This document shows, in pieces, positions 5,229-15,703 of a DNA stretch of 64,000 nt. The stretch is taken from assembly GCF_004118155.1 (NCBI RefSeq), contig NZ_SAIQ01000001.1:124001-188000 (forward strand), written 5' to 3'. Each line of letters begins with the position of its first letter. Position 1 is the first letter of the stretch. The notes beneath the pieces were generated by a model. It was not told the DNA's origin, made no database searches, and saw only the letters and a program-made list of their open reading frames with translations. The stretch comes from Edaphocola flava (GTDB lineage Bacteria > Bacteroidota > Bacteroidia > Chitinophagales > Chitinophagaceae). A program made the position numbers and the translations under genes.

Positions 5229-8200
5229 ATGCAATTCAATATCTACAAAAAACTAAAACAGTTGCTGCCTGCTTCGTTTGCGGTGGCAATACTACTCTCC
5301 GGGTATGGCGCCTTTGCCCAGCCTTATGGGAATGAGTGGATCAATTATAACCAGACCTATTTTAAAGTTAAGGTTGGAGAAAACGGTATTTATCGCATAC
5401 CCTATGCTGCACTACAGAGCTATGGTATGGGCAGTGTGCAGGGTACACAATTCTCTGTATTTCGCGATGGCGTACAGGTGCCGGTATATGTGAGCAATAA
5501 CGGTACTTTAGGCAGTAATGACTATATAGAGTTCTATGGTACTAAGGCTAATGGCAAGATGGATACAGAACTGTATAACAATCCGGGAGACCAGCCTGAT
5601 GTAGAGGTCAACGGCATTTCTGATACGGCGTATTACTTTATTACCTTCAACAGCACCGGTAATAATGCCCGCCTGACGCTGAACAATAATGTGATGCCTG
5701 GCACACCGCCGGCAGCAGAACCTTATTGTATGACTACGGTCTTACCGACCACGTCTTTACGCAGCAACTTTGCCCAGGGAGAATCTTATTATACTGGAAC
5801 AGAACTGGTCTATTACTATTCAGCTAAAAATGATAAAGGTGAAGGCTGGGGCATTACCTCATATGCTCCCATTAACCTTACTTATAATACACCTAATATC
5901 TATACCGGCGCCAACGCTACGTTGCAAACGGTAACCTTATGGAACTCCAAGTTGAACGGTAATAACCTGCAGTATTACATTAACGGGACTATGGTATTAG
6001 ATACTTCTGGCCTGGCACCTTATACCCTTGTCCGGAGGAATTTCAATATCAACAGTGCTTCTCTGAACAACAGTAATACCATCACGGTTTCCAACATTCA
6101 GCAATATGGCTTTACCGTACAGAAGGCGGGCCTGTACTATCCACGCACTTTTAACTTCGGATCGGTATCCAGTCTCAATTTTGATGTCCCAGCCAATAAT
6201 GCGGTGCAATTGCTGACTTTAACCAATACAAGCAGCAGTACACATTACGTATTTGATCAGGCCACCAACAATATTTACCACATCAATGGCTCGGGCACAG
6301 TTAATGTTGTATTACCGGCAACTGGCGGCAACAGCAGAAGTATTTATTATGCTCAGGCACCAAAAACAATCACCACACTGATCCCGGTTACATTTAAGAA
6401 TTATACCCAAAGTGCTAACCAGGGTAATTATCTTATCCTTACAGATAAGGCTTATATAAACATGCCGAACAGTGCAGTAGCAGACTATAAATCTTATCGT
6501 AGTTCTGCAGCAGGTGGCGCTTTCCAGGCGGTTATTATAGAAGCCAATGATCTTTATGACCAGTTTGGCTATGGTTATGAGTATAACGGACTTTCTATAA
6601 AGCGATTCCTGAAATACGCCCAAAGCAGCAGCAGCTGGAGCAATAAGCCGGAGTATATGCTTATTATAGGCAAGGGAATCAGTTATGAATACATAAGAGA
6701 TTATGTATCCAATCCTGCTACTTACCCATATCCTATGGTCCCTACACTTGGAACGCCAGGATCGGATAACCTATTAGCTGAAATAGGCTTCACTAATATA
6801 CCATCAATTGCTATAGGCAGGGTTTCGGTACAGAATAATACTGAAATTGCGAATTACCTGGAGAAGGTAAAATCTTATGAAGATGCCCTCAAAACGCCAG
6901 CTGTCCCTAACCTCACCAATAGTTTATGGAAAAAGAAAGGACTGCATATTGCCGGTTCTCAGGGTGTTACATTACAAGCAGAATTGTACGCAGGTCTGAA
7001 TACCTGTAAAGCAATTATAGAAGATACCCTTACCGGTGCAACCGTCATCACTACAGGAAAAAGCTCTACAGATGTTATAGAGAATGCAAGCGCCCAGATC
7101 GATTCACTGATGAGATCGGGAGTACAATACGTTAACTTTTTCGGACATGCATCGGCCAGTGGCTTTGATTATAACCTGAATAACCCTGAAAATAACAATT
7201 CCAGCCCCCGCTTCCCGGTGTTTATGGCACATGGTTGTGACATTGCGAATATTTTCACGCCAAGTACGACAAGGACAATCAGTGAGCGCTATATTGATGC
7301 GCCTAATGGTGGTTCCATTGCTATGATTGCCTGCGACAACTTCGGGTGGACCAGCTACCTGGCTAATTATATGAGGGGTATGTACCAGAATTTTGCCTAT
7401 AAAAATTACGGAAAAACGCTGGGCCAGCAATACCGCAGTAATATTGAGAATCTGCAGAATGTAAATCCCGGCAACATTTTCACATCTATTCATTCACAGA
7501 ATATGTTGTTGCAAGGTGATCCGGGCTTATCGGTATACAATCCTGACAAACCGGACTATTATGTAGATGAATCGCTTTTATCCAGCAACCCGGCTATTGT
7601 CAATACAACTATGGATACATTTACCCTGAGGGCAACCGTTTATAACCTCGGAAAAGCGATCAATGATTCTGTATATGTATACCTTGCCCATACCAAGGTC
7701 GGTTCTTCCGTAGTGCTGTTCCAGGACTCCATAAAAGTAAAGATCCTGAATCAGCAACAACTGTCGTTCAAGGTGCCTGTTAATCCACTTACCGATGTTG
7801 GCTTGAACAATTATACTTTACGCATCAATAAAAATGAGGTCAATGATGAGATTACATTCGCCAACAACAGCGCTACCCTGCAACTGTATATTTCTGAAAA
7901 CAACCTTACACCTGTATACCCTTACAACTTTTCCATCGTACATCAGCAGAATATTGAGCTGAAGGCCTCTACCCTCAATCCATTCCTGCATGAGACGCGT
8001 TTTATCATGGAACTGGATACTACAGAGCGCTTCAACAGTCCGATGAAGCAGACTAAGAATGTTACGAGTATGGGTGGTGTAATCAAGTGGACGGTTCCCT
8101 TCCAGATGACAGACAGTACAGTGTATTACTGGCGCACGACCATTGACACCTTAATTAATGGACAGTATGTATGGAACAATAGTTCCTTCATCTACCTGGC

Positions 8201-10241
8201 CAATGGTTCTGATGGATGGAACCAGTCGCATTACTATCAGTATGCCAAAAATACAAGAGTAGGACTGGACTTAACGGAAGCTAATCCTCAGTTTGAATTC
8301 GGAGCCAAGGATAATAATTTACGAGTGTTAAACCAGGTATTCGGTTTTAGTTCGACATATAGCTCAAACTTCCTGAATAATATAAACCTGGGTAATGCCG
8401 GTTGTGTATTTGAAGGAGGGGTACAATTTGTACTGATCAGTCCGCTCACAGCTACGGCAACAGTCAATACAGGACAGTATCCGGGCAGCACTCCAGTATG
8501 TTTAAACCGTATGTATCATATCGAGTTCCCGACTACTACTGCTCAGGGCCGTAAGAGTGCAATGGATTTTATCCAGAGCATACCGGACGGGACTTATGTG
8601 ATGATGAAATCAATTATGACGACAAGCTCTGGAGAAACTTATATTGATACATGGATGAACGATACCCTCACCTACGGTAGCGGACAGTCTTTATACCATA
8701 AAGTAAAAAGCCTGGGTTTTACAGAAATCGACCAGTTTACAAGTCGTAAGCCTTTTATCTTTTTTGGCCGTAAGGGCTATCAGGCATTTGTTCCATCGCA
8801 GGTAGTTGGTGCTCTGCCCGATTCCAAAATTGACATTGACCGCGATTTCAATTCGTACGATGATAATGGTAATATGAACAGTGTCGTAATCGGACCGGCT
8901 AAGTCATGGACGAAACTGCTGTGGCAGATAAAATCAAGAGATAACCACCTGGACTATGACAGTAATTCTGTAAAAGTATATGGTCTCTCCGGACCGGATT
9001 TTGCAACAGAGACCTTATTATTTTCTACGATGAATATGGACACTTCACTGAGCGGTATCGATGCTGCACAGTATAAAAAGCTGCGTATGGAATGGTATAC
9101 CAAGGATAGCACCTTGTCTACCCCTTCTGACCTGCGCTACTGGCGTGTATTGTATACTCCATTACCAGAGGCAGCCTTGAATCAGCTGGTGGCCATGGAA
9201 TTCAAAGATTCTATTCAGCAGGGAGAGCAACTGTCTTTGAAACTGGGTATTGAGAATATCAGTCATCTGCCGATGGATAGCATGCTGGTACGATACAAAC
9301 TTATTGATGCCAGCAACGTAACGCATACCCTGGCTTCGGTACGGTACAAACCTTTAGCAGCAGGCGATACACTGGTAGCCCAGTTCCAGTACAACCCTTC
9401 AGCTTATTCCGGTAAAAATGTATTGTATGTTGAGGCGAATCCTGATCAGGACCAGCCGGAAGAATACCATCCGAACAACCTGGGCTATCTTCCGTTCAAA
9501 GTGCAGTCAGACCTGACCAACCCGATCATGGATGTAACCTTTGACGGGGTGCACATCCTGAATAAAGATATAGTGTCGGCCCGACCGCTGATCCGTATTT
9601 TACTGAAGGATGAAAACAAACATAACCTGATCAATGATACGTCATTGATTCAATTAAGTATGAATAGCGAAACGGACCCAACTTTTGTAACCATTCCGTT
9701 TGATGGTACAATCTGTAAGTTTATTCCTGCAGAAAGCAATGGTAAGAATGAGGCTTATATTGAGTACAGACCAACCCTGGCGGACAATACTTATACCATC
9801 CAGGTGGCGGCCAAAGATAGAGCAGGCAACACGGTTGGGGCAACCAACAAAAAATATGAAATCGGATTCGTAGTATTTAACAAACCAACCATCACCAATG
9901 TGCTGAACTATCCTAATCCATTCTCTACCGCAACACAATTTGTGTTTACCATGACCGGGTCGGAGATACCAAGCCAGTTCAAAATCCAGATCATTTCGGT
10001 TACCGGTAAAGTGGTAAAAGAGATCACCAAGTCTGAACTGGGCAACCTCCATATCGGCAGAAATATCACTGATTACCGATGGGACGGAAGAGACCAATAT
10101 GGTCAATTGCTGGGTAACGGCGTGTACCTGTACCGCGTTATCACCAACAATAGTCAGGGAGAGGATATTGAACTGAACAAAAATAATGCAGTAGATAAGT
10201 TCTTTAAGAACGGCTACGGGAAACTGTATATAATGCGTTAA
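5229..10241 (+). CDS. porU2: C25 (gingipain-type) peptidase, PorU2-like type IX sortase
   Basis: This giant secreted protein has 1670 residues. A signal peptide (about 1-30, FAQ) is followed by a long beta-rich N-terminal region. The C25 peptidase core spans about 400-770, with the catalytic dyad readable as His640 (NFFGHAS) and Cys670 (MAHGC). CARDB/Ig-like repeats follow, and a FlgD-like Ig domain ends the protein (about 1560-1640, NYPNPFSTATQF, then WDGRDQYGQLLGNGVYLYRV). PorU cleaves the C-terminal sorting signal of type IX cargo and attaches it to lipid at the cell surface. This protein is much longer than classical PorU, so PorU2 is preferred. It follows porV2 by 12 nt. Confidence 0.8.
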   Translation: MQFNIYKKLKQLLPASFAVAILLSGYGAFAQPYGNEWINYNQTYFKVKVGENGIYRIPYAALQSYGMGSVQGTQFSVFRDGVQVPVYVSNNGTLGSNDYIEFYGTKANGKMDTELYNNPGDQPDVEVNGISDTAYYFITFNSTGNNARLTLNNNVMPGTPPAAEPYCMTTVLPTTSLRSNFAQGESYYTGTELVYYYSAKNDKGEGWGITSYAPINLTYNTPNIYTGANATLQTVTLWNSKLNGNNLQYYINGTMVLDTSGLAPYTLVRRNFNINSASLNNSNTITVSNIQQYGFTVQKAGLYYPRTFNFGSVSSLNFDVPANNAVQLLTLTNTSSSTHYVFDQATNNIYHINGSGTVNVVLPATGGNSRSIYYAQAPKTITTLIPVTFKNYTQSANQGNYLILTDKAYINMPNSAVADYKSYRSSAAGGAFQAVIIEANDLYDQFGYGYEYNGLSIKRFLKYAQSSSSWSNKPEYMLIIGKGISYEYIRDYVSNPATYPYPMVPTLGTPGSDNLLAEIGFTNIPSIAIGRVSVQNNTEIANYLEKVKSYEDALKTPAVPNLTNSLWKKKGLHIAGSQGVTLQAELYAGLNTCKAIIEDTLTGATVITTGKSSTDVIENASAQIDSLMRSGVQYVNFFGHASASGFDYNLNNPENNNSSPRFPVFMAHGCDIANIFTPSTTRTISERYIDAPNGGSIAMIACDNFGWTSYLANYMRGMYQNFAYKNYGKTLGQQYRSNIENLQNVNPGNIFTSIHSQNMLLQGDPGLSVYNPDKPDYYVDESLLSSNPAIVNTTMDTFTLRATVYNLGKAINDSVYVYLAHTKVGSSVVLFQDSIKVKILNQQQLSFKVPVNPLTDVGLNNYTLRINKNEVNDEITFANNSATLQLYISENNLTPVYPYNFSIVHQQNIELKASTLNPFLHETRFIMELDTTERFNSPMKQTKNVTSMGGVIKWTVPFQMTDSTVYYWRTTIDTLINGQYVWNNSSFIYLANGSDGWNQSHYYQYAKNTRVGLDLTEANPQFEFGAKDNNLRVLNQVFGFSSTYSSNFLNNINLGNAGCVFEGGVQFVLISPLTATATVNTGQYPGSTPVCLNRMYHIEFPTTTAQGRKSAMDFIQSIPDGTYVMMKSIMTTSSGETYIDTWMNDTLTYGSGQSLYHKVKSLGFTEIDQFTSRKPFIFFGRKGYQAFVPSQVVGALPDSKIDIDRDFNSYDDNGNMNSVVIGPAKSWTKLLWQIKSRDNHLDYDSNSVKVYGLSGPDFATETLLFSTMNMDTSLSGIDAAQYKKLRMEWYTKDSTLSTPSDLRYWRVLYTPLPEAALNQLVAMEFKDSIQQGEQLSLKLGIENISHLPMDSMLVRYKLIDASNVTHTLASVRYKPLAAGDTLVAQFQYNPSAYSGKNVLYVEANPDQDQPEEYHPNNLGYLPFKVQSDLTNPIMDVTFDGVHILNKDIVSARPLIRILLKDENKHNLINDTSLIQLSMNSETDPTFVTIPFDGTICKFIPAESNGKNEAYIEYRPTLADNTYTIQVAAKDRAGNTVGATNKKYEIGFVVFNKPTITNVLNYPNPFSTATQFVFTMTGSEIPSQFKIQIISVTGKVVKEITKSELGNLHIGRNITDYRWDGRDQYGQLLGNGVYLYRVITNNSQGEDIELNKNNAVDKFFKNGYGKLYIMR

Positions 10242-12813: not shown

Positions 12814-15075
12814 TTATCTCAGTACCAGTTTCTGGTTATATACTGCTCCGGCTGCGTTCACAAAACGGATGTAGTATACACCTTTACCTAAATGACCTAC
12901 CTGCACTGTTTTGCTGGCCTGTTGTCTGCTCAGCTCTTCAGTCCAGATTGTCTGGCCCAGCATATTCATCAACTGTATATTGCCATTACCGGCTTCTTTA
13001 TTTAAGCTAATGGTTACCTGGTCTGTAGCAGGATTAGGATAAATGCTGATACCTTCTGCTGTTGCCAGTTCCTTGATTGCGGTTGTACCTCCGGTATCAA
13101 TAGTCGGCACTGCACTAGCGGTATTACCAATCACCACATTTCTGCGGGATACAGAGAAGAAGATATTATTACTCGCTTTGATCTTTACCCTTGCTGTAGT
13201 ACTGGTGATATCCGGGATATTAACCAGTGCACTTCCCGTATTCGGTACATTTTGTGCCAGCACAATAGGATACGTTCTGCCGGTATCTACAGATAAGTAG
13301 ATATTCACAGTAGCACAGTTAATCGGTGCACTGCCGGTATGCGCCTGATCCCAATAGATCGTCGTCGCACTGTTTTTGATGATGCTATCGTTCGTGTTAG
13401 GATAAATAATCGCAAATGGTCTTGGCGTTGCAATTACATTGATATTATTATTCTGATCAGAAACATTTACTGCTCCCCATCCGTCTTTTACCTCTCTGGC
13501 TATGAATTTAAAATTATAGCTGCGGGCACCATTCGACAGGCGATGTCCTTTACCGGAAACGATACCGGATTTCAGGATAGCATAACTAGGGAAAGTACGG
13601 GTAGTAACGGTATCAGGAAATATGCTTCTGAAAACAGGGCCTGTTGTAAAATCAGAACCCAAGTTTTCATTCTCCTGGTAGTTACCTAAGTTATATTGCT
13701 CGATGGTATACGTGAGCGCACTGTTTGTATTTCCCGGAGTTACCGTTGGGAAATCAAACTCGAACGGTGTCATGTATGGAATATTATATACCGTGGCAGC
13801 ATCTACCGTAAAGTCAGGGGCTGAAATACCGGTTGCAGCTGTACCACAGGTAGAGGCTGAGCCACTAGCCAGGCTGATCGCAATCTCGTTAAGACTGGCG
13901 CTGTGAAAGTAAGCATCACTGTTAGATTGCAGGTTATTGGTTGTACCACAAATACCCGCATAAGCCATAATAGTAGCACCACTACCCGGCTCATATGCTG
14001 TAGACTGATTTTCGGTACCGCTACAAATATTGAAGGTATGGTTAGCACCAAACTGGTGTCCCATCTCATGTGCTACATAATCTACATCATAAGGGTCGCC
14101 AACAGGATTTGCACTACCGGTTACACCTCTTGCTTTAAAGTTGCTGCGGCACACCCCTTCCAGCATAGCGATACCACCACCGCCGGTACTGAAGATGTGT
14201 CCGATATCGTAACTGTTATTGCTGATTTTAGCAGCTGTATTATTTTGGTTTTGTGATAATAACTGGTCACCGTTATTGTTAGCCGTAAACGGGTCTGTAG
14301 CAGGATCTGTATAGATCAGCGTATCGTTATTCGGGATAAACTGCATGGTCACCGCCAGCTCTCTTTCATAAATACCGTTTACACGGTTCATAGAAGTCGT
14401 CATGGCAGAAAATACTGCTGCTTTGGTCGGATTGGCTCCGGCAACAGCAACGGCATATTCACCGGTACAGCTTAGTGCCAGGCGGTATGTTTTGCGGGTA
14501 GCACCATTGGTACGCAGCGCCGTCACGCCGCTATTCGCTTCCTCTACCCTTATCGGTTCCGCACCGGCAACCAGTGAAGATTCTGCCGCGGTATTTACAC
14601 AAGGCATAATCACTTGTCTTTTGGCATCAGCCTTATAAAAAGCTGCATAGCCATTAGTGCTCCCTTCTGTAGGATTGATCAGGAAAGTACGCGCTCCGTC
14701 ATACACCATTACGTGCAAGCCGAATGTGTTATAATCCAGTTTGGCACTGATACCCTTACTGTTTGCAGCAACGGCATCAAAAGTCTGTACTTCTGGAAAC
14801 TTAGCCTGTAATGCCTGTGGAATCAGGGTATTTTTCCATACCAGTAACTCCATTCTGCCCCCGTCCGGAGTAGGAATCGTCATACTTACGGCCTGCTCTT
14901 TGGAAGTACCTGCCTTTTGCAGCATTTGCAGTAATGCATGCTGGTCAACGGTAAATCCATAAGAAGGAATATCCATATTCCGCGCAGTCATGGACGTAGA
15001 CCAGAACTGGTCCTGAGCATTAAGAGCAACACAAAAGCTACCCAGTAAAATACCGGTTAAAAGTATTTTTTTCAT
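12814..15075 (-). CDS. Secreted zinc metalloprotease (reprolysin-like) with type IX sorting domain
   Basis: The 753-residue preproprotein has a signal peptide (1-20, cleaved near LNAQ) and a propeptide-like domain (about 35-150). The metzincin catalytic domain carries the zinc motif HEMGHQFGANH, with His336, Glu337, His340 and His346. A region of Ig/fibronectin-like strands follows (about 400-650). The end is a type A Por secretion tail (about 680-753, IYPNPATDQVTISL ... GKGVYYIRF). It should be exported by Sec, moved across the outer membrane by the T9SS, and released or surface-attached. A lipoprotein similar to its propeptide is encoded 22 nt upstream in the same direction. Confidence 0.9.
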   Translation of the reverse strand: MKKILLTGILLGSFCVALNAQDQFWSTSMTARNMDIPSYGFTVDQHALLQMLQKAGTSKEQAVSMTIPTPDGGRMELLVWKNTLIPQALQAKFPEVQTFDAVAANSKGISAKLDYNTFGLHVMVYDGARTFLINPTEGSTNGYAAFYKADAKRQVIMPCVNTAAESSLVAGAEPIRVEEANSGVTALRTNGATRKTYRLALSCTGEYAVAVAGANPTKAAVFSAMTTSMNRVNGIYERELAVTMQFIPNNDTLIYTDPATDPFTANNNGDQLLSQNQNNTAAKISNNSYDIGHIFSTGGGGIAMLEGVCRSNFKARGVTGSANPVGDPYDVDYVAHEMGHQFGANHTFNICSGTENQSTAYEPGSGATIMAYAGICGTTNNLQSNSDAYFHSASLNEIAISLASGSASTCGTAATGISAPDFTVDAATVYNIPYMTPFEFDFPTVTPGNTNSALTYTIEQYNLGNYQENENLGSDFTTGPVFRSIFPDTVTTRTFPSYAILKSGIVSGKGHRLSNGARSYNFKFIAREVKDGWGAVNVSDQNNNINVIATPRPFAIIYPNTNDSIIKNSATTIYWDQAHTGSAPINCATVNIYLSVDTGRTYPIVLAQNVPNTGSALVNIPDITSTTARVKIKASNNIFFSVSRRNVVIGNTASAVPTIDTGGTTAIKELATAEGISIYPNPATDQVTISLNKEAGNGNIQLMNMLGQTIWTEELSRQQASKTVQVGHLGKGVYYIRFVNAAGAVYNQKLVLR

Positions 15076-15097
15076 TCTTTTAATTGTTGTTTATTTA

Positions 15098-15703
15098 TTA
15101 TTCATTTACTTGTTTCTGATTTTCTCCGTTTTCAAAAGGGCTTTTAGTTTCGTTTGTGTTGTTCTTGTTGTATAGTAAGTAGTAGACGCTTCCATTTACA
15201 GCTTCCCATGGTGAAAGCAGGAAGGTTTTGTTCTGATAGGTAATCATAGCGGTCATATACTGCCCGTCGTAGTTAAGGCGTATATGAGCCAGGTTAGTAG
15301 TAGTGTTTCCTGAGAGGTTATAGAGGTTGGGGTATTTTTTGCGGAGCTCTGCTGAGAGTATCCCCGCATCTTTAGTAGTAAATGTTTGTGGCCCGATAGA
15401 TTCGGGTAAGGGTATGGTAAATGCCTGCACCTGTTCTGCCTGCTGAAAAGCAGTAAAAAAACGATTGATTGCCGTGTGGTCTATATGATAAACCTCATAT
15501 GCCGACGGTAATTTATGGTTGCGCCAGGTAGTATTCAGATGTACACCATCAGCCCGCTTCCATTCGGAAACAGTAAAGCCGGTGCCCTTCTGTGCTGTAC
15601 CTGTATGTTGTGCCATGCTTTTATGATGCGATTGTGCCGCGCTGCAAGACTGCAGGAACACTCCCGTCATACTCAAAGCCATCAGCACTAACCATTTATT
15701 CAT
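15098..15703 (-). CDS. Lipoprotein resembling the propeptide of the adjacent metalloprotease
   Basis: This 201-residue protein has a lipoprotein signal ending at Cys20 (GVFLQSC). Residues 68-180 align with residues 38-150 of the protease encoded just downstream, at an almost constant offset of 30. Shared positions are Tyr69/39, His76/46, Glu90-Gln91/60-61, TIP 96-98/66-68, Pro100/70, Leu143/113, Tyr145/115, Met153/123, TFL 160-162/130-132, Pro165/135 and Glu167/137. It has no protease domain. The gene is first in a two-gene operon (22-nt gap). A role as membrane-tethered inhibitor or folding aid is inferred; it could also be a degenerate duplicate. Confidence 0.7.
   Translation of the reverse strand: MNKWLVLMALSMTGVFLQSCSAAQSHHKSMAQHTGTAQKGTGFTVSEWKRADGVHLNTTWRNHKLPSAYEVYHIDHTAINRFFTAFQQAEQVQAFTIPLPESIGPQTFTTKDAGILSAELRKKYPNLYNLSGNTTTNLAHIRLNYDGQYMTAMITYQNKTFLLSPWEAVNGSVYYLLYNKNNTNETKSPFENGENQKQVNE

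Follow-up and report, generated by a model that had tools for sequence, protein, structure and literature searches.

In a stretch of 64,000 nucleotides from Edaphocola flava (contig NZ_SAIQ01000001.1, positions 124,001 to 188,000, assembly GCF_004118155.1; hereafter the window), a gene for a small lipoprotein lies directly upstream of a gene for an M12B-type metalloprotease with a type IX secretion tail, on the same strand and with 22 bp between them. We found that this lipoprotein is a homologue of the prodomain of the adjacent protease, that it belongs to an old lineage of stand-alone prodomain proteins encoded beside such proteases, and that it lacks the cysteine that follows the prodomain in the proteases themselves. 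Judging from its sequence and genomic setting, the lipoprotein probably serves the neighbouring protease specifically, as inhibitor or chaperone. An earlier note on the same DNA had taken the lipoprotein for a stand-alone copy of the adjacent propeptide; the homology held up, whereas the lipoprotein turned out to be an ancient paralogue in a separate clade and without the candidate switch cysteine.

Homology between the lipoprotein and the protease prodomain

When the two proteins were compared by BLASTP, residues 59–192 of the lipoprotein aligned with residues 30–161 of the protease at 25% identity (E 8e-5, single comparison), in agreement with the offset of about 30 residues given in the earlier note. 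A single-sequence search of the organism's own genome with the lipoprotein recovered the adjacent protease (E 2.5e-3) and a second genomic protease (E 5e-4). The comparison of profile hidden Markov models that the earlier note had proposed was significant, as hhalign matched a profile of 25 stand-alone sequences to one of 28 prodomains over 138 columns with a probability of 99.4 and E 2.4e-21. With the Edaphocola rows removed, the stand-alone profile gave the window protease 30.7 bits, against 10.2 for the highest-scoring of 4000 shuffled sequences, and the lipoprotein reached 56.2 bits with the prodomain profile, against 10.1 in the same number of shuffles. Chance resemblance is ruled out by the profile–profile match together with these shuffle controls. 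Moreover, in separate AlphaFold2 models of the lipoprotein and the protease (predicted local distance difference test, pLDDT, 83 and 74; predicted TM-score, pTM, 0.74 and 0.80, respectively), both prodomains have the same predicted order of strands (E) and helices (H), E-H-E-E-H-E-E-E-E-E. The second protease, of the same kind (754 amino acids (aa); L023:5208-7472, near 1271977 of C1 in the E. flava genome), matches the lipoprotein through its prodomain and lacks a neighbouring stand-alone gene.

The lipoprotein has no protease domain, as had been noted before: it matched no NCBIfam family and no Pfam family above cut-off, the best Pfam match (E 0.034) lying below the curated one. Likewise, zero Pfam families, the type IX sorting domain included, were found at E 0.01 in the 25 stand-alone members scanned, so such genes are probably unannotated. 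Searches of PDB sequences with the stand-alone and prodomain profiles gave no credible match. The common strand and short gap fit the operon-like arrangement described earlier, and the two genes may be co-transcribed; in a promoter and terminator scan of the locus, the number of sites was no higher than in shuffled sequence.

Gene pairing and ancestry of the stand-alone proteins

To survey the pair, 394 genomes of the family (Chitinophagaceae) were searched with profiles at a cut-off of E 1e-15, at which divergent copies may be missed, and matches with an open frame of 102–319 aa were counted as stand-alone copies. Open reading frames (ORFs) were called as the longest frame, with some starts lying too far upstream, and the stand-alone gene of genome G257 was read directly, a longer ORF on the opposite strand having masked it. 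Stand-alone copies were found in 30 of the 394 genomes, distributed over ten genera. Of the 29 genomes whose downstream side is visible, 27 have the protease gene immediately downstream in the same orientation, including G411 and G271, whose protease frames are broken and which were counted as adjacent by position only; G241, with its stand-alone gene at a contig edge, is outside these 29. Apart from the lipoprotein gene itself, a single-sequence search of 59 relatives gave stand-alone copies in G001, G030 and G005; that of G001, from the same genus, is 92% identical. The pair occupies at least two different gene neighbourhoods, adjoining what we take to be pheT in Edaphocola and genus g2, whereas other genomes, G030 among them, have it next to a presumed copper-type ATPase gene.

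Pairs also occur outside the family, in G475, G481 and G822 and in metagenome-assembled genomes (MAGs) from the Cytophagales and the Salibacteraceae (Flavobacteriales), and the gene order is therefore conserved in other Bacteroidota, which the earlier note had proposed to look for. G822 was the only new match with a short stand-alone frame in a sample of 375 genomes of the phylum (E 1e-10), in which a G937 match of 362 aa lies at a contig edge. In G457 the order is reversed, the stand-alone gene (L124:3507-4031) coming after a protease fragment and stopping at about the place of the protease cysteine; the stand-alone gene of G418 lies at the end of its contig. On the protease side, the zinc site HExxHxxGxxH is kept in 29 of 29 partner proteases compared, so an active enzyme would be available to control, and Por_Secre_tail was found in all seven proteases scanned with Pfam.

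Two further observations concern the surroundings of the pair. In G190 (genus g110) a gene for a type IX tailed M1 peptidase (Pfam; L074:931-3321) lies near it, and ORFs that look similar are found near the pair in g104 genomes. A short ORF of G024 (L021:5824-6123), which has a lipobox and no prodomain, occupies the usual place of the stand-alone gene, between the presumed copper-type ATPase gene and the protease gene, and is perhaps a remnant of it.

A tree of 76 prodomains (123 columns) placed all 28 stand-alone proteins of the family in one clade with an ultrafast bootstrap (UFBoot) support of 99, apart from the prodomains of their neighbours. The lipoprotein is therefore an old paralogue, and recent copying of the adjacent propeptide is ruled out. 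In the same tree the copies of G475 and G481 group with their adjacent proteases (support 98), by which their stand-alone genes are a second, independent duplication, in another family. When three further taxa were included in a second tree (82 rows), the family clade was recovered (93) and joined to the Salibacteraceae protein (98), deeper nodes being weak. The rows dropped from the trees were the stand-alone protein of G241 and the proteases of G411, G653 and G390 (too short); G411 is also outside the set of 36 stand-alone sequences used below.

The prodomain-like part of the lipoprotein is conserved between two Edaphocola species. Between the window lipoprotein and that of Edaphocola aurantiacus, 2 of 132 residues differ in the domain (aa 61-192), with non-synonymous (dN) and synonymous (dS) rates of 0.0098 and 0.073, from 9 nucleotide differences, and 11 differ among the first 60 residues. 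Over the whole gene, dN/dS in this species pair was 0.51 for the lipoprotein versus 0.039 for the protease; for the whole stand-alone gene of the G184/G108 pair it was 0.084.

Switch cysteine, tail, fold and location

In 47 of 50 protease rows the prodomain is followed by a cysteine. Of the remaining rows two are cut short and one, from the Cytophagales MAG (L060:6671-10558), is without it; that protease, itself paired, reads FFEE at the place. At other loci, 39 protease rows were inspected, at least 4 of them already counted; 38 have the linker cysteine, 22 of these as F-x-C by eye, and the G264 protease (L104) is without it. In the model of the window protease the cysteine linker has a pLDDT below 50. 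ADAMs possess a cysteine switch, which the cysteine of these prodomains resembles, and it is a probable cysteine switch here too. Such a switch has been reported for mirolysin, a protease of Tannerella forsythia (PMC8259862).

The stand-alone proteins have lost this residue: of 36, 33 are without a tail cysteine, one (G241) is cut before the tail and two (G475 and G481) have one, and the cysteine is missing from all 28 family proteins whose tail can be seen. This rules out the lipoprotein as a simple replica of the propeptide. In the G475 and G481 copies (L120:2432-3007 and L121:3892-4452) the usual ending is replaced by a basic tail that is rich in Lys and contains a single Cys. The sequence F[ED] was present in 19 of the 36 tails, those of the Salibacteraceae and G822 proteins included, compared with a mean of 6.8 and a maximum of 16 in 2000 rounds of tail shuffling, a count that is not one of independent cases as the sequences are related. 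Since proteases from other loci often read F-x-C, the F[ED] tail looks like the switch segment minus its cysteine. A looser tail motif (28/36) was set aside because unrelated sites match it too. Several prolines and tyrosines of the protease prodomains are retained in the stand-alone proteins. A pair of cysteines is common to 24 of the 26 stand-alone proteins of the first set, both being missing from the two Edaphocola proteins; the one on the N-terminal side was considered as a permuted cysteine switch and dropped, as it co-occurs with the second, which favours a disulfide.

The fold was examined with Foldseek. The best solved fold for the lipoprotein model was that of 6o38, six chains of which (117-130 residues) were among the first seven matches, with probabilities of 0.97-1.00, E values of only 0.05-0.18 and template modelling (TM) scores of 0.53-0.62 (target) and 0.38-0.42 (query). 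From their length and a paper linking 6O38 to work on CpaA–CpaB, these short chains are taken to be CpaB, a protein encoded beside the protease CpaA in Acinetobacter. Entries of the ADAM17 prodomain came lower in the list (probability 0.2-0.4). The pro-catalytic model of the protease matched ADAM17 complexes and profragilysin (E 9e-9 to 2e-5), and against viral models the protease model gave no match at E 0.001.

The lipobox noted earlier is present in the window species, and by eye in 21 of the 36 homologues; the other 15 are without a clear one, G481 being doubtful. A pattern flag had given 20, from which G199 and G481 were removed by eye and to which G137, G068 and G105, whose ORFs begin too early, were added. 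Membrane tethering, which the earlier note had made part of the system, is rejected as an essential feature on these counts. Some lipoproteins carry an acidic surface-export signal; none was noticed by eye after the lipobox cysteine. As homologues with neither lipid nor sorting tail could act only in the periplasm, this compartment is the most likely site of action.

Table 1. Features of the gene pair in the window.
Feature	Position	Strand	Basis
Stand-alone prodomain lipoprotein, 201 aa	15098..15703	minus	ORF call and homology to protease prodomains
Lipoprotein signal peptide, lipobox LQSC (Cys20)	15644..15703	minus	sequence reading
Prodomain-like domain, lipoprotein aa 61-182	15158..15523	minus	hhalign; model pLDDT mostly >90 here
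Phe190-Glu191, lipoprotein C-terminal tail	15131..15136	minus	joint alignment; near the M-x-C / F-x-C place of proteases
Intergenic gap, 22 bp, no terminator-like site inside	15076..15097	minus	ORF coordinates, terminator scan
M12B-type metalloprotease with type IX secretion tail, 753 aa	12814..15075	minus	Pfam; HEMGHQFGANH intact
Protease prodomain, aa 20-158	14602..15018	minus	BLASTP, hhalign, model
Cys159 (MPC), candidate cysteine switch	14599..14601	minus	cysteine invariant in 28-row prodomain alignment
Reprolysin_4 catalytic domain, protease aa 193-384	13924..14499	minus	Pfam, E 2.2e-34
Por_Secre_tail, type IX sorting domain, protease aa 678-751	12823..13044	minus	Pfam E 3.6e-14, NCBIfam

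Elsewhere in the window, a PorU2-like type IX sortase of 1670 aa (NF052324, 660 bits) is encoded at 5229-10241 on the opposite strand, beyond an RNase R gene.

Possible roles and related systems

The reading that we favour, and to which we give about even chances, is that the lipoprotein is a trans-acting prodomain that binds and silences the neighbouring type IX metalloprotease. According to this proposal, the periplasmic prodomain relative, lipid-anchored in E. flava, would bind the catalytic domain and hold the protease inactive within the envelope, or at the surface should the protease escape there. Docking of the globular body on the catalytic domain would follow the arrangement of M12B zymogens. 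The C-terminal tail, which often retains the switch Phe without the cysteine, would sit within or close to the active-site cleft, like the CpaB tail in CpaA. A role in folding or as a secretion chaperone, added to inhibition, is quite possible. The proposal is supported by the prodomain homology, the conserved pairing, the second duplication beside a protease and the intact zinc sites of the partners, as well as by the possible likeness to the CpaB fold, the F[ED] tails, the few domain changes between the Edaphocola species and co-divergence with the catalytic domain. As to the latter, over 24 family pairs the distances among stand-alone proteins correlated with those among the partners' catalytic domains (Spearman 0.57, partial 0.54, permutation p 0.0005), the values for the partners' prodomains being 0.28 and -0.03, and with one pair per genus (9) the partial correlation for the catalytic domain was 0.45. 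This co-divergence is suggestive only.

Several results weigh against a trans-acting prodomain. The co-divergence is weak and leans on genus g72, without which the catalytic-domain partial drops to 0.26; shared ancestry may account for it, and the partners' C-terminal part also gave a correlation (Spearman 0.34, partial 0.21, p 0.02). Two genomes of one genus, G105 and G181, have the stand-alone gene without a protease alongside. Conversely, seven proteases at the same loci are without a stand-alone gene (G003 and G004 at pheT; G024, G194, G320, G348 and G372 at the ATPase gene), these having been inspected by choice and not systematically, so the gene is dispensable over evolution; at least 174 of the 394 family genomes match the prodomain profile at E 1e-3, versus 30 with a stand-alone copy. 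The fold match to CpaB has an E of 0.05 at best, with sequence support absent in the PDB profile search, and 17 of the 36 copies, all those of genera g2 and g72 included, are without the F[ED] tail. Finally, near-invariant prodomain residues are mostly lost in the stand-alone proteins (the PDG glycine is kept in 26%, GFHA in 8-47% and the I-D-P Asp in 6%), so the docking surface may differ.

The protein might instead act mainly as a foldase or secretion chaperone, CpaB- or Lif-like, that assists folding in the periplasm and hands the protease over to the type IX system, inhibition being secondary. The possible resemblance to the CpaB fold speaks for it, as do a periplasmic location suiting lipidated and non-lipidated homologues alike and the reported failure of CpaA secretion without CpaB (PMC4713064). 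However, CpaB is described there as anchored by a transmembrane helix, whereas the lipoprotein has a lipobox. An obligate foldase is made less likely by the readable partner proteases retaining a prodomain of their own and by same-locus proteases, even in the same genus (G003 and G004), occurring without the gene, and we regard the chaperone account as rather unlikely, if worth keeping in view. A more specific form of inhibition, which we hold improbable, is that a duplicated prodomain that lost its switch cysteine re-inhibits the mature protease in trans as a self-protection of Bacteroidota, having evolved at least twice, with the carboxylate of the tail Phe-Glu/Asp substituting for the cysteine at or beside the zinc (a trans 'carboxylate switch'); it is favoured by the paired Cytophagales protease having itself lost the cysteine and reading FFEE in its place.

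Two other accounts were considered. As a surface receptor, anchor or decoy, the protein would retain the mature protease or the cleaved propeptide through prodomain–prodomain or prodomain–catalytic contacts; the lipobox of 21 copies fits this, and loss of the cysteine would permit binding without inhibition. Surface anchoring is, however, hardly possible for the 15 homologues without a clear lipobox, as none of the 25 scanned has a type IX sorting domain, nor was the acidic export signal noticed, which makes this role quite improbable. The gene might also be a neutral relic left by an old tandem duplication and functionless today, which would fit its patchy presence, the proteases lacking it at the same loci, the rapid divergence of its N-terminal part and the whole-gene dN/dS of the Edaphocola pair. 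Against this stand the nearly unchanged domain, an open frame maintained across ten genera of the family as well as in taxa whose names place them in three orders, the appearance of paired copies on two occasions and the low dN/dS of the G184/G108 pair, and we consider a remnant very improbable.

KLIKK proteases are type IX cargo. They carry a C-terminal sorting domain (PMC4404884), and the potempins of T. forsythia, lipoproteins encoded directly before them, are described as their inhibitors (PMC7296668), so the statement in the earlier note that no system of this kind had been described for type IX cargo was too strong. Like the potempins, the lipoprotein is small and its gene immediately precedes that of a secreted protease carrying a C-terminal sorting domain, although among the homologues of the lipoprotein the lipobox is not general. 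Unlike the potempins, for which the description in PMC7296668 mentions no propeptide homology, the stand-alone family is paralogous to the prodomain of its partner protease. CpaB is needed for the stability and secretion of CpaA, beside which it is encoded, and its tail blocks the active site (PMC7542363). It too is held in the envelope, encoded beside a secreted metzincin (CpaA being adamalysin-like) and, by the weak Foldseek match, perhaps similar in fold; CpaB has a transmembrane anchor, a type II secretion partner and a downstream gene (PMC4713064), whereas the lipoprotein has a lipobox, a type IX partner and an upstream gene, and the PDB search with the stand-alone profile detected no sequence homology to CpaB.

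In Plasmodium, SUB1-ProM, a stand-alone protein like a subtilisin propeptide and encoded beside genes for subtilisin-like proteases, inhibits SUB1 (PMC6993865). It resembles the lipoprotein in being a propeptide homologue without a catalytic domain encoded beside a protease, but it acts on a eukaryotic serine protease. We know of no relation between SUB1-ProM and metzincin prodomains. The C10 proteases of Bacteroides have co-transcribed staphostatin-like inhibitors (Bfi/Bti) with either kind of signal peptide, and in B. thetaiotaomicron two of them are predicted to be lipoproteins and another has a signal-peptidase-I site (PMC3462683). These, like Spi of SpeB, are small (putative) inhibitors co-transcribed with proteases, and the Bacteroides proteins are a mixture of lipidated and non-lipidated forms as here; their targets are cysteine proteases, however, and the Bacteroides members resemble staphostatins. 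The Btp proteases, too, are predicted to be lipoproteins.

No prodomain paralogues of type IX metalloproteases were found in the literature searched by title and start of the abstract, a collection mostly without subscription journals, and the pair was absent among the matches listed for Edaphocola or Taibaiella and type IX metalloproteases. Judged against the described analogues (potempins, SUB1-ProM and CpaB), the pairing of a prodomain paralogue with M12B-type type IX proteases is a new variant. To our knowledge, apart from work on the potempins, there has been little study of how the periplasm is protected against type IX cargo proteases. The prodomain paralogues described here, which accompany M12B-type proteases in taxa whose names belong to three orders, offer a simple genetic and biochemical handle on this protection, and the family would reveal how a cis-acting propeptide becomes a regulator in trans.

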